This document shows, piece after piece, positions 4,757-63,166 of a DNA stretch of 64,000 nucleotides. The stretch is from Megalobrama amblycephala (Eukaryota; Chordata; Actinopteri; Cypriniformes; Xenocyprididae). Positions within the stretch are counted from its first letter, which is position 1; the number at the start of each line of letters is the position of its first letter. Location of the stretch: positions 6,933,796-6,997,795 of the forward strand of contig NC_063061.1 in NCBI RefSeq assembly GCF_018812025.1, in the 5' to 3' direction. The notes beneath the pieces are model-generated. The model was given only the letters and a program-made list of their open reading frames with translations. It was not told the DNA's origin and did no database searches. A program made the position numbers and the translations under genes.

Positions 4757-4867
4757 GATGCAAAGGAGCAGATGTCTCCTCTAGCTGCAACTCTGGAGAA
4801 GCTCCAGCTAGAGAAACAGGACCTTGCCAAGCGCAGGATGCAGAAACAGGCAGAAGGGCAAGAAAAG
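4757..4867 (+). CDS. rad50: rad50 exon, residues 907-943
   Basis: Phase 0 at both ends. It starts [17 protein letters not shown], part of the second coiled-coil arm. The acceptor is tattag and the donor is gtgtgg. Confidence 0.95.
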
Positions 4868-62900: not shown

Positions 62901-63166
62901 TCCATTCACTTGTTTACTCCTCCATGCATCCATCCACCCTTTATACTGATATTAATTAATCATTTTGTACTGACAGGCAGTCCATAGTAGATCTCCAGGA
63001 GAAAGAGCTGCCAGAGCTCAGAAATAAACTCCAGCGTGTGAATCGAGACATTGAGAAGCTGAAAGGAGACACTGAGGAGCAGGAGACACTGCTGTGCACA
63101 CTGATGTCTGAGGAAGACACAGCCAAGGCCTGTCTGCAGGACGTCTCCCTCATGGATCGCTTTCAG
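38804..63166 (+). CDS. rad50: DNA repair protein Rad50, N-terminal portion (partial gene)
   Basis: Fourteen exons (38804-38932, 41788-41871, 42067-42218, 49942-50127, 51041-51245, 51508-51636, 52301-52466, 54050-54243, 54335-54541, 56354-56536, 58769-58926, 60461-60636, 61105-61342, 62977-63166) encode residues 1-799 without a lesion. They give the N-terminal ATPase lobe with Walker A (VGPNGAGKT), the Q-loop (FCHQEES, Gln159), the ascending coiled coil, the zinc hook Cys681-Pro-Val-Cys684 and the start of the descending coiled coil. Positions 159, 681 and 684 fall exactly where they do in human RAD50. All introns are GT-AG except the last, which is GC-AG. The remaining exons (residue 800 onward) are not in the 834 bp left. 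Residues 80-260 differ more from other vertebrates than I would expect for Rad50, so this may be a diverged paralogue of the gene whose C-terminal part lies at 4757-15024. Confidence 0.97.
39311..40140. mobile_element. MITE nested in family A copy 3
   Basis: Inverted tips agaccccttaa and ttaaggggtct; inward, gcctccagct is matched by the inverse agctggaggc. About 830 bp, non-coding. Confidence 0.75.
40337..41293. mobile_element. Second MITE nested in family A copy 3
   Basis: Inverted tips aaaggtgcccaagaatg and cattcaagggcaccttt. A short relative is at 43034-43238 and a diverged one at 35646-36492. About 950 bp, non-coding. Confidence 0.8.
41788..41871 (+). CDS. rad50: rad50 exon 2, residues 44-71
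   Basis: [20 protein letters not shown] and onward to HDPK, phase 0 to 0. Acceptor tttccag, donor gtaggt. Confidence 0.97.
42067..42218 (+). CDS. rad50: rad50 exon 3, residues 72-121
   Basis: Reads [20 protein letters not shown] and onward; ends with two bases of Gln122. The end ([10 protein letters not shown]) departs from the usual TLEGVITR-K text of vertebrate Rad50. Confidence 0.95.
42219..43033. other. rad50 intron 3, first part
   Basis: Starts with dispersed-repeat text (gctgcatttattttatcaaaaatacag); otherwise AT-rich without recognised boundaries. Confidence 0.4.
43034..43238. mobile_element. Short MITE (aaaggtgccc family)
   Basis: About 205 bp with tips aaaggtgccctcgaatg and ggggcaccttta; an internally deleted relative of 40337-41293 (shares the gaatttatcttggcatag segment in inverse). 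Confidence 0.75.
43570..43870. repeat. Dispersed repeat, part
   Basis: Shares cagcatcattacttcagtcttcagggtcacatgatc with 36830-36880. Contains poly-T and poly-A runs. Non-coding. Confidence 0.65.
44761..44993. mobile_element. MITE family C, copy 2
   Basis: Opposite orientation to 13769-14006 (taagccgggcacacattta at the left here). Inserted in MITE B copy 2; the uninterrupted B copy 1 lacks it. Confidence 0.8.
45033..45614. mobile_element. MITE with tips gggtgcttctcaat, 3-bp duplication
   Basis: 582 bp with inverted tips gggtgcttctcaat and attgagaagcaccc, flanked by ATA on each side (45030-45032 and 45615-45617). MITE B copy 1 reads straight through this point (aactcataatctgc) with a single ATA, which proves insertion. 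Confidence 0.88.
46983..47039 (+). repeat. 57-bp direct repeat, copy 1
   Basis: Identical to 48706-48762 (starts atccttcaggaactttt, ends aaacgcata). It brackets the palindrome and the ambiguous base at 48617. Confidence 0.95.
47040..48572. mobile_element. Giant palindrome (foldback element), arms of about 755 bp
   Basis: The left arm 47040-47798 and right arm 47821-48572 are inverse copies at near identity, around a loop of about 22 bp (47799-47820). Tips are cagtgtgtgcagaattattag and its inverse ctaataattctgcactccctg, flanked by TA on both sides as for Tc1/mariner elements. No transposase motif was recognised in either arm. Confidence 0.92.
48573..48617. repeat. (TA)n run ending in an ambiguous base
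   Basis: About 44 bp of TA followed by the only N in the window (48617). Likely an assembly-uncertain spot. Confidence 0.95.
48706..48762 (+). repeat. 57-bp direct repeat, copy 2
   Basis: Exact copy of 46983-47039. Confidence 0.95.
49578..49941. other. End of rad50 intron 3
   Basis: AT-rich with a poly-A run at 49808-49825; nothing else recognised. Confidence 0.5.
49942..50127 (+). CDS. rad50: rad50 exon 4, residues 122-183 (Q-loop)
   Basis: Encodes [19 protein letters not shown] with the Q-loop glutamine at 159, which senses ATP and magnesium. The first part ([11 protein letters not shown]) is unlike the usual HGEKVSLSSKC. Donor splits Arg184. Confidence 0.96.
50128..51040. other. rad50 intron 4, nothing recognised
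   Basis: Uniformly AT-rich; no element tips or coding sequence recognised. Confidence 0.55.
51041..51245 (+). CDS. rad50: rad50 exon 5, residues 184-252
   Basis: Start of the ascending coiled coil ([17 protein letters not shown] and onward to IDPLE). Acceptor gaag, donor gtgaga. Confidence 0.96.
51508..51636 (+). CDS. rad50: rad50 exon 6, residues 253-295
   Basis: Coiled coil, includes [20 protein letters not shown]. Acceptor tttcag, donor gtaacc. Phase 0 to 0. Confidence 0.96.
51637..52300. other. rad50 intron 6, nothing recognised
   Basis: No element tips recognised. The antisense 82-codon frame at 52011-52259 has no known motif. Confidence 0.5.
52301..52466 (+). CDS. rad50: rad50 exon 7, residues 296-350
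   Basis: Coiled coil, [19 protein letters not shown] and onward; ends in one base of Gly351. Confidence 0.96.
52467..54049. repeat. rad50 intron 7 with degraded hAT-like repeat
   Basis: Text tagggttgcaaccagcaac (about 52670) and agattagttattgcagtccta (about 53895) look like outer inverted tips. Inner text gggctgtgcaataaatcg (52923) and gatcatatcgccccacaata (53730) looks like a second, nested pair. Non-coding. Confidence 0.5.
54050..54243 (+). CDS. rad50: rad50 exon 8, residues 351-415
   Basis: Coiled coil, [19 protein letters not shown] and onward to LNQTM. Acceptor tgaag, donor gtagat. Confidence 0.95.
54335..54541 (+). CDS. rad50: rad50 exon 9, residues 416-484
   Basis: Coiled coil, [20 protein letters not shown] and onward to LQKM. 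Acceptor tttcag, donor gttaga. Confidence 0.95.
54542..54885. other. rad50 intron 9, first part
   Basis: Nothing recognised. Confidence 0.5.
54886..56148. mobile_element. MITE with tips aaagtgcccctattatgc
   Basis: About 1.26 kb with inverted tips aaagtgcccctattatgc and gcataataggggcttta. Interior includes gattggccagatgg and other text common in fish MITEs; no transposase. Confidence 0.85.
56354..56536 (+). CDS. rad50: rad50 exon 10, residues 485-545
   Basis: Coiled coil, [20 protein letters not shown] and onward to LKKTK. Acceptor atag, donor gtgagc. Confidence 0.95.
56578..57622 (+). mobile_element. 5S-rRNA-derived SINE (SINE3-like), interrupted
   Basis: The head at 56602-56664 matches the 3' half of vertebrate 5S rRNA (gaagctaatcagggttg, tggatgggagacctcctggg: intermediate element and box C). 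The tail (gtaaagcactttgggtgtatag, then imperfect attcatt repeats) is of the L2/CR1-LINE type. A palindromic element at 56719-57288 splits it. The 5' end of the 5S part appears truncated. Confidence 0.8.
56719..57288. mobile_element. hAT-like MITE nested in the SINE
   Basis: Inverted ends: cctttttcaccaaggcagtt at the left and tgctggtggaaaagtgg at the right, with further mirrored text (gagtgctggttcagagcc / gaactagcaccc). TACC occurs at both junctions. Non-coding. Confidence 0.7.
57623..58768. other. rad50 intron 10, remaining part
   Basis: AT-rich, nothing recognised. Confidence 0.5.
58769..58926 (+). CDS. rad50: rad50 exon 11, residues 546-597
   Basis: Reads [20 protein letters not shown] and onward with [14 protein letters not shown]. 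Donor gtatgt splits Asn598. Confidence 0.96.
58927..60460. other. rad50 intron 11
   Basis: AT-rich. Near 59600-60010 the phrase ttttaccgaatgac recurs in varied forms (cgaatgacactt, ccgaatgatga, ccgaatgacatc), suggesting a decayed repeat. A tRNA-like B-box text (ggatttgaacctgc, minus sense) lies at 60348. Confidence 0.4.
60461..60636 (+). CDS. rad50: rad50 exon 12, residues 598-656
   Basis: [20 protein letters not shown] and onward with [13 protein letters not shown], approaching the zinc hook. One base of Ala657 at the end. Donor gtacgg. Confidence 0.96.
60637..61104. other. rad50 intron 12, nothing recognised
   Basis: No element or exon recognised. The antisense 120-codon frame at 60660-61022 has no known motif. 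Confidence 0.55.
61105..61342 (+). CDS. rad50: rad50 exon 13, residues 657-735 (zinc hook)
   Basis: Encodes the zinc hook CCPVCQRVF (metal ligands Cys681 and Cys684) that joins two Rad50 coiled coils through one zinc ion. The exon ends AG before gcaata, a GC donor. Confidence 0.97.
61366..62205. repeat. Degenerate (CCAT)n minisatellite
   Basis: Over 800 bp of ccatccatc-rich sequence in intron 13, organised from about 61550 as longer units like cattcccccatccttccatc + cacctgtttaccccttc. Long open frames rich in Pro, Ile, His and Ser across it are artefacts. Confidence 0.95.
62206..62861. mobile_element. LTR-like insertion in the minisatellite
   Basis: About 656 bp of unrelated sequence, starting TGTTGGGG and ending in ...AATCCA (TG...CA limits), interrupts the minisatellite, whose units continue from 62862 (ccccttcattaccc). 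It contains AATAAA at about 62249 and no coding sequence. It may be a solo LTR; no clear target duplication is seen, so orientation and class stay open. Confidence 0.4.
62977..63166 (+). CDS. rad50: rad50 exon 14, residues 736-799
   Basis: Descending coiled coil after the hook: [20 protein letters not shown] and onward to SLMDRFQ. Acceptor gacag, donor gtttaa. It is the last rad50 exon in the window. Confidence 0.96.

Follow-up and report, generated by a model that had tools for sequence, protein, structure and literature searches.

Known RAD50 and IL-4/13 systems

RAD50 is generally regarded as a single and strongly constrained vertebrate gene. The S site of the protein is a regulatory surface that docks the C helix of NBS1 and the iDDR of TRF2, with a predicted contact for CtIP. 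The vertebrate protein, exemplified by grass carp RAD50 (P0121) and the human chain of PDB 9q9h, is 1312 residues long, and rad50S alleles are known as K81I in yeast and K22M in mouse. In teleosts il4/13 lies directly 3' of rad50; in PMC4905449 adjacency to RAD50 is the rule by which IL-4/13A is named, and mammalian IL4/IL13 control is placed in the 3' end of RAD50.

The carp-family fish Megalobrama amblycephala carries a true head-to-tail duplication of the unit rad50 - il4/13. As in the teleost locus il4/13 directly follows rad50; the difference is that the whole unit is duplicated in tandem and that the second il4/13 is broken. Both rad50 genes, copy A and copy B, share the length and domain order of vertebrate RAD50, and the grass carp protein is identical to copy A at 1285/1312 residues and to copy B at 1241/1312. 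Copy A has the common vertebrate S site except at the variable residues 24 and 93, whereas copy B, the additional gene of the tandem, has diverged in its N-lobe and S site. The residues that correspond to the rad50S alleles, R83 and K22, are altered in copy B; unlike those alleles copy B is a natural second gene and has the milder R83K and many more changes.

The duplicated unit

The window is the whole 64,000-nucleotide stretch that was analysed (NC_063061.1, positions 6,933,796 to 6,997,795). A sequence-only reading had placed rad50 residues 907-1312 at 4757-15024 and residues 1-799 at 38804-63166 on the same strand, with il4/13 between them. The spliced models agree with these coordinates, the two parts being exons 17-25 of copy A and exons 1-14 of copy B, and il4/13 occupies 17024-17852. 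The frames and splice sites are intact as had been read: of the 24 introns in each copy, intron 13 is GC-AG in both and all the others are GT-AG. The features in the window are given below; the rad50 exons are from spliced models, supplemented by motifs where these are named.

1..23543, +, window part of unit 1 (C18:6902398-6957338), collinear self-alignment
4757..4867, +, rad50 A exon 17 (from residue 907)
5581..5673, +, rad50 A exon 18
5767..5880, +, rad50 A exon 19
6629..6756, +, rad50 A exon 20
7001..7225, +, rad50 A exon 21
12822..12907, +, rad50 A exon 22
14065..14207, +, rad50 A exon 23 (SAGQK signature)
14546..14679, +, rad50 A exon 24 (Walker B)
14838..15024, +, rad50 A exon 25 and stop
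17024..17158, +, il4/13 (il4/13A type) exon 1
17265..17315, +, il4/13 exon 2
17524..17652, +, il4/13 exon 3
17742..17852, +, il4/13 exon 4 with the stop codon (protein of 141 aa)
34815..64000, +, window part of unit 2 (C18:6968610-7023478, ending at a 1000-N gap), self-alignment
38804..38932, +, rad50 B exon 1 (with start codon and Walker A; K22S)
41788..41871, +, rad50 B exon 2 (Ks 0.26 against A)
42067..42218, +, rad50 B exon 3 (residues 72-122, which include most of the S site; Ka 0.16, Ks 0.21 against A)
48617..48617, no strand, isolated N within intron 3 of rad50 B, a possible contig join
49942..50127, +, rad50 B exon 4 (residues 122-184 with the Q-loop; 122-152 are diverged; Ka 0.10, Ks 0.21 against A)
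51041..51245, +, rad50 B exon 5
51508..51636, +, rad50 B exon 6
52301..52466, +, rad50 B exon 7
54050..54243, +, rad50 B exon 8
54335..54541, +, rad50 B exon 9
56354..56536, +, rad50 B exon 10
58769..58926, +, rad50 B exon 11
60461..60636, +, rad50 B exon 12
61105..61342, +, rad50 B exon 13 (zinc hook CPVC; GC donor next)
62977..63166, +, rad50 B exon 14 (to residue 799)

Extension of the flanks, as the earlier reading had proposed, located exons 1-16 of copy A at window -26033 to -37 and exons 15-25 of copy B at window 64160 to 80442, and both genes are therefore complete. Each has 25 coding exons of equal lengths in A and B and a 3939-nt CDS for 1312 residues, and the spliced models contain no internal stops or frameshifts; tblastn with a human guide found consecutive exons at both loci with identities of ~40-90%, far beyond chance. 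The unit of ~65 kb contains rad50 and il4/13 and aligns collinearly with its neighbor, so that two full copies lie on the same strand with collinear flanks, as expected of tandem duplicates. With two full, intact and non-identical exon sets, the option of two rad50 genes with il4/13 between them proved right. The competing suggestion that a rearrangement had permuted one rad50, C-terminal half first, draws on the exon order inside the window alone and is refuted, with a likelihood close to nil, by the remaining exons of both copies directly beyond the window edges.

Both copies have the RAD50 motifs. GPNGAGKT at 36 and CHQEE at 157, which we take to be Walker A and the Q-loop, CPVC of the CXXC zinc hook at 681, and in the C-lobe the SAGQK signature at 1202 and an 11-residue Walker B stretch at 1228 are present in A and B; scans of copy B gave AAA_23 at 123.1 bits for the ABC-type N-lobe, Rad50_zn_hook at 49.4 bits and SbcC_Walker_B at 29.3 bits.

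The il4/13 start codon lies 1999 bp beyond the rad50 A stop, which is the RAD50 adjacency that defines IL-4/13A, and the whole protein scores 20.5 bits with Pfam IL4, under the cut-off of 23. The second il4/13, after rad50 B, has two stops in exon 1 and is decayed. A search of 264 kb for KIF3A, SEPT8 and IRF1 with approximate fragments gave no match at E 1e-3, and these genes thus provide no synteny anchor.

Graded divergence of the two copies

Noncoding divergence between A and B falls from 5' to 3', from 8.1% (exons 1-4) to 3.8% and then 1.6%, and the coding sequences follow, with 61/756 sites differing in exons 1-5 versus 34/3183 in exons 6-25 (p 2e-22). Noncoding gap rates in the three segments, taken 3' to 5', predict 11, 21 and 13 gaps in the CDS, where the aligner placed 0, 0 and 2. 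Among the 52 residue differences between A and B, A has the state that is most frequent in 24 other rows at 45, and B has it at 3. Judged by these comparisons, copy B is intact yet derived and copy A in all likelihood retains the ancestral protein. Other changes in B, E562K, E626K, A662P and E678K, look like general relaxation.

Trees of the two ends conflict. The N-terminal tree groups B with the hypothetical protein P0151 of Culter alburnus (support 100/99), a row that begins at residue 100 and covers 45% of the N-terminal columns, whereas the C-terminal tree groups A with B (100/96) and leaves Culter outside; the grouping is thus by paralog at the N-terminus and by species at the C-terminus, with one other species showing the B-type in a partial row. 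Graded divergence combined with such a conflict is as predicted by gene conversion, which we infer as the mechanism. Conversion or repeated unequal exchange would have homogenised much of the interval from exon 5 to beyond il4/13, which would account for B differing from A at only 2 of its last 512 residues, and the promoter side with exons 1-4 would have retained an older divergence. An old tandem duplication followed by conversion, with a derived copy B, is the preferred reading at a probability of roughly 0.6.

The S site of copy B

The ten S-site residues were taken from PMC12446458. Compared with copy A, which keeps the site, copy B is changed at 7/10, or at 6/10 under another alignment in which K126 is counted as kept (K126W being alignment-dependent); R83K and V117L are mild changes. 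Within residues 1-185 the excess at the S site has P 1e-4 for 7/10 and P 1e-3 for 6/10, values that are uncorrected and only descriptive because the test was chosen after K22S and R83K had been seen. Where at least 90% of rows share a single state, 4/6 S-site positions are changed versus 12/131 others (p 1.7e-3), and at the stricter 95% level 2/4 versus 4/115 (p 0.012). Several uncommon S-site states occur in some other vertebrate records too, with a maximum of 5/10 (Callorhinchus P0247) and with 4 in Myotis P0280.

Two related proteins can be set beside copy B. Culter P0151 shares L117, F121, Q122, W126, K127, N130, S134 and S152 with copy B, although most S-site residues are invisible in it since it begins at residue 100 and appears to be without exon 5. 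The diverged RAD50 P0202 of Cirrhinus molitorella has uncommon states at 7/10 S-site residues, like copy B; unlike B it is diverged over its whole length, is 79% identical to B, and is ungrouped with B in both trees. No full-length B-type relative was seen among the best 120 of 670 matches to B residues 68-182, in a database clustered at 90% identity, so that B-types may hide inside A-type clusters.

The stretch of exons 1-4 encodes the N-lobe, and it is there that the S site of B is changed; both Walker motifs, the Q-loop, the hook and the signature are retained. B may be silent; if expressed, it would join MRE11/NBS1 complexes as a homodimer or mixed with A, and these would bind ATP and DNA with a weak or different S-site regulation. 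That B is regulated weakly or differently through the NBS1/TRF2/CtIP docking site is a tentative proposal, and relaxed selection, which also favours surface residues such as those of the S site, counts against it. More speculative still is that B might have been kept as a natural separation-of-function RAD50 and serve as an additional subunit of MRN, with an S site unresponsive or differently responsive to NBS1, CtIP and TRF2, for example as a germ cell or ATM-signalling form. Conversion would then preserve the core and selection keep the N-lobe distinct, and Cirrhinus would have independently evolved a similar copy with an altered S site.

Alternative explanations

That contigs were misplaced, the remaining suggestion of the sequence-only reading, is unsupported for A and B, since the lone N at window 48617 is the only one between the A start and the B end, and C96, a separate contig of the same assembly that differs in a repeat right beside this N, crosses the place without an N and shows an A-like and then a B-like rad50. 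C96 is 99.5% identical to A at 1-2500 and 99.4-99.7% identical to B at 56001-65000, with B exon 4 100% identical; on these two matches the first idea, that C96 represents further units of the array, was dropped and C96 is now read as the other haplotype. An artefact that placed two alleles of one rad50 in tandem might be suspected from the 1000-N gap right after unit 2 (9.2 kb past rad50 B), the lone N inside copy B and the partial extra rad50 copies on C96 and at C18:3.99-4.03 Mb, and from C96 itself, where allelic divergence is not uniformly small: C96:10001-11827 is 98.0% identical to A and 98.0% to B, and C96:70001-77116 is 98.4-98.6% identical to B, i.e. 1.4-2.0% from the presumed counterparts. 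However, over C96:1-2500 and C96:56001-65000 the distance to the same-type copy is only 0.3-0.6%, A and B differ by 8.1% in 5' noncoding sequence and have kilobase-scale unaligned stretches, both types lie on C96 in the same order, and Culter carries B-type residues; simple allelic duplication was rejected on these grounds and is very improbable.

Given the same duplication and conversion, copy B could instead be redundant and under relaxed selection, conversion from A renewing most of it as the unreached N-terminus drifts, so that the S-site pattern reflects exposed residues. This is possible but doubtful. It agrees with Ka 0.16 beside Ks 0.21 in exon 3, with radical changes elsewhere in B, with the broken partner il4/13, and with C96, where the homology of the B-like copy to B ends in intron 13 and rad50 exons after 13 were absent from C96:79001-89000 and 90001-110000, so that some haplotypes may lack an intact B; it agrees poorly with the retained catalytic motifs, with B-type residues common to Culter, and with exons 1-4, which though least converted keep frame and equal lengths, with 2 gaps placed against ~13 expected. 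The units might alternatively be kept for il4/13, rad50 hitchhiking on its 3' part as a putative Th2 control region; this unlikely account is compatible with the duplication itself. The homogenised part is indeed the rad50 3' half, mammalian IL4/IL13 control sits in the RAD50 3' end according to PMC4905449, and a fragment elsewhere couples the two genes:

C18:3996529-4027130, -, fragment E, rad50 exons from 11 to 25 joined to an open 142-aa il4/13

Against this, the il4/13 beside the complete copy B is broken, and rad50 B is open throughout, beyond the 3' half.

Implications

Here a DNA-repair gene is linked to a type-2 cytokine locus that is duplicated. Under the preferred reading of duplication and conversion, it suggests how conversion can keep two genes alike over one part of their length and leave another part free to diverge. 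An intact second RAD50 differing mainly at the rad50S docking surface would be a natural test of what the S site does independently of the ATPase core.

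Two rad50 genes in tandem

The sequence-only reading placed RAD50 residues 907-1312 (4757-15024) and 1-799 (38804-63166) on one strand; spliced models match these limits to the base and give the forward strand for both, with il4/13 at 17024-17852 between the two parts. It left open tandem genes, misplaced contigs or a permuted gene and proposed extending into the flanks; in 80 kb upstream and 120 kb downstream of the window (C18:6933796-6997795, contig C18, in a genome of 1.11 Gb and 243 contigs) tblastn with a human RAD50 query sequence finds two full rad50 exon ladders. The odd order thus arises because the window edges cut through two genes that stand in tandem. 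Copy A spans C18:6907762-6948819 and copy B C18:6972599-7014237, each with a coding sequence of 3939 nt in 25 exons that yields 1312 aa and is free of internal stops; introns are GT-AG in both except for a GC donor after exon 13 (intron 13 GC-AG; after window 61342 in copy B). The probability of two complete tandem rad50 genes is about 95%. Among the matches listed from open papers, no report of tandem rad50 in fish was found; some fish proteins are already labelled RAD50-like in databases, and so a second fish rad50 may be annotated elsewhere without comment.

Alleles, contig C96 and fragment E

That copies A and B are alleles of one rad50 laid in tandem is unlikely, since noncoding divergence near exons 1-4 reaches 8.1% with several further kb unaligned between the copies, and since P0151, a Culter alburnus protein and hence evidence outside this assembly, has B-type residues of exons 3-4. 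The 110,779-bp contig C96, which is from the same assembly and so not fully independent, likewise carries an A-like copy and, 62.4 kb further, a B-like copy (exon 5 at C96:1846 and C96:64279). The A-like copy begins at the first base and is 99.5% identical to A over 2.5 kb; C96:56001-65000 matches the 5' part of B in two long blocks of 99.7 and 99.4% substitution identity, exons 4-6 being 100% identical. The only N between copies A and B is at window 48617, and C96 crosses the same place without N, the alignment being poor in the repeat just before it. From its sequence C96 is read as a probable second haplotype, although C96:10001-11827, 98.0% identical to A and to B alike, and parts of C96:70001-77116, at 98.4-98.6% to B, count against a simple haplotype.

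A partial third rad50 unit, fragment E, lies 2.9 Mb away on the minus strand (C18:3996529-4027130). Its homology to B sets in abruptly within rad50 intron 10, and the pieces read are free of N; exons 11-13 were read and exons 14, 16, 24 and 25 matched, and beyond them lies an open il4/13 frame of 142 aa. Over one 4.4-kb stretch fragment E matches B at 99.4%; around il4/13 its identity to both copies is 96-98%, and beyond that it is 89-93%. Fragment E may be real, misplaced or a rearrangement.

The B-like rad50 of C96 (C96:64279-79560) stops matching B within intron 13, at C96:79055, the 500 bp after this break match fragment E at 99.6%, and no rad50 exon was seen beyond it in C96:79001-89000 and 90001-110000. 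A CATC-rich minisatellite of ~40-bp units lies in intron 13 near this break point (window 61357-62185), with a similar array in copy A. Intron 3 of copy B contains a ~1.5 kb palindrome (window 47037-48575, 94.6% self-complementary), then a TA run and the single N (to 48617).

Graded divergence of the copies

Noncoding substitution divergence between A and B falls from 8.1% (311/3854) around exons 1-4 to 3.8% (322/8418) around exons 5-13 and 1.6% (332/20377) from exon 14 through il4/13, a count over 13 of the 25 chained blocks of the alignment that leaves aside the 12 smaller ones and takes the il4/13 exons as noncoding. Coding differences number 61/756 sites in exons 1-5 and 34/3183 in exons 6-25, and Ks is 0.21-0.26 in exons 2-4 and 0.008 in exons 14-25. 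The gradient is patchy, identity dropping to 89-96% in 1-kb bins around exon 8 and around exons 12-13. Exon lengths are equal; the aligner placed 0, 0 and 2 coding gaps in exons 14-25, 5-13 and 1-4, where the noncoding gap rate predicts 11, 21 and 13. In trees of 28 rows, residues 43-230 join B with Culter (support 100/99; the Culter row covers only 45% of these columns), whereas residues 300-1312 join A with B (100/96), Culter lying outside. The gradient and the tree conflict fit gene conversion or unequal exchange on the 3' part, and a homogenised 3' part beside an older 5' part is very probable.

The duplicated unit and il4/13

The duplicated unit includes both rad50 and il4/13: C18:6902398-6957338 aligns collinearly with C18:6968610-7023478, at the end of which a 1000-N gap begins. 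The four exons of il4/13 A code for a 141-aa protein, whose Pfam IL4 score of 20.5 bits lies below the cut-off of 23. In il4/13 B, three single-base insertions in exon 1 create two in-frame stops, and exon 3 has an 18-nt deletion. Identity between the copies is 94.8% in the 1-kb bin C18:6951000-6951999, where most of il4/13 lies, against 97.9 and 97.6% in the two adjoining bins; this bin may have been spared by conversion or have evolved faster. Excerpts of PMC4905449 identify fish IL-4/13A as the copy adjoining RAD50 and place the mammalian IL4/IL13 control region within the RAD50 3' end; PMC4690019 suggests that the ancestral mode of expression was retained at the locus with RAD50 and IL-4/13A. 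The duplication would also have copied the predicted il4/13 control region in the rad50 3' end.

In the spacer between the units an open frame (window 29868-30380) gives weak, below-cut-off reverse-transcriptase RNase H matches. Transposon remnants in the window are:
9991-10341, + strand, Tc1-like transposase remnant (Pfam DDE_3, below cut-off)
30493-31149, - strand, Tc1-like transposase remnant (Pfam DDE_3)
32189-33016, - strand, Tc1-like transposase remnant (Pfam DDE_3 and HTH_Tnp_Tc3_2)

Copy B and the S site

Copy B is the derived one: at the 52 residues that differ, the commonest state of 24 other rows is found in A at 45 and in B at 3, with 4 undecided. The S site is the RAD50 N-lobe docking surface for NBS1 and TRF2 and, by prediction, for CtIP. 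Excerpts of PMC12446458 give human contacts of the NBS1 C helix at K6, S8, I24, R83 and Q85, of the TRF2 iDDR at K6, K22, R83 and K126 plus the patch L93, A95 and V117, and a predicted CtIP contact at K22. Seven of these 10 residues differ in B (22, 83, 85, 93, 95, 117, 126), with 29 differences in residues 1-185 (P 1.0e-4); the site was picked after K22S and R83K, at residues of the known rad50S alleles, had been seen, so that this and the following P values describe rather than prove. An alternative nucleotide alignment, in which an insertion offset by a deletion would retain K126 one position away, gives 6/10 (P 1.0e-3), and omission of 93 and 126 gives 5/8 (P 1.9e-3). Among residues at least 90% one state in 196 retrieved rows, 4/6 S-site positions are changed against 12/131 others (one-sided p 1.7e-3), and at 95% conservation 2/4 against 4/115 (p 0.012).

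At least two uncommon S-site states occur in 20 of the 196 rows besides the Cirrhinus record P0202, which has seven and stands apart from B in both trees. Callorhinchus P0247, a record rich in rare residues, has five, Myotis P0280 four, and the remaining rows 2 or 3. The Betta splendens RAD50 record P0227 shows K22V, R83K and K126A, and that of Tetraodon nigroviridis, P0215, K22M, as in the Rad50S mouse. That altered docking at the S site is the difference that matters in copy B is a tentative proposal, less likely than not.

Expected working of copy B

The chances that copy B is functional appear about even; a redundant copy under relaxed selection, or units kept for il4/13, share the duplication and are compatible with it rather than exclusive. 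Walker A, Q-loop, hook, signature and Walker B are unchanged in B, which should thus still form the clamp. In PMC12446458 the pair of S sites in a complex is divided between partners, one side serving NBS1 and the other TRF2, and PMC11260466 reports that human R83D loses TRF2 binding in yeast two-hybrid. With these roles and the S-site changes of B, regulation at breaks and telomeres would be expected to differ in complexes that contain B, either alone or mixed with A.
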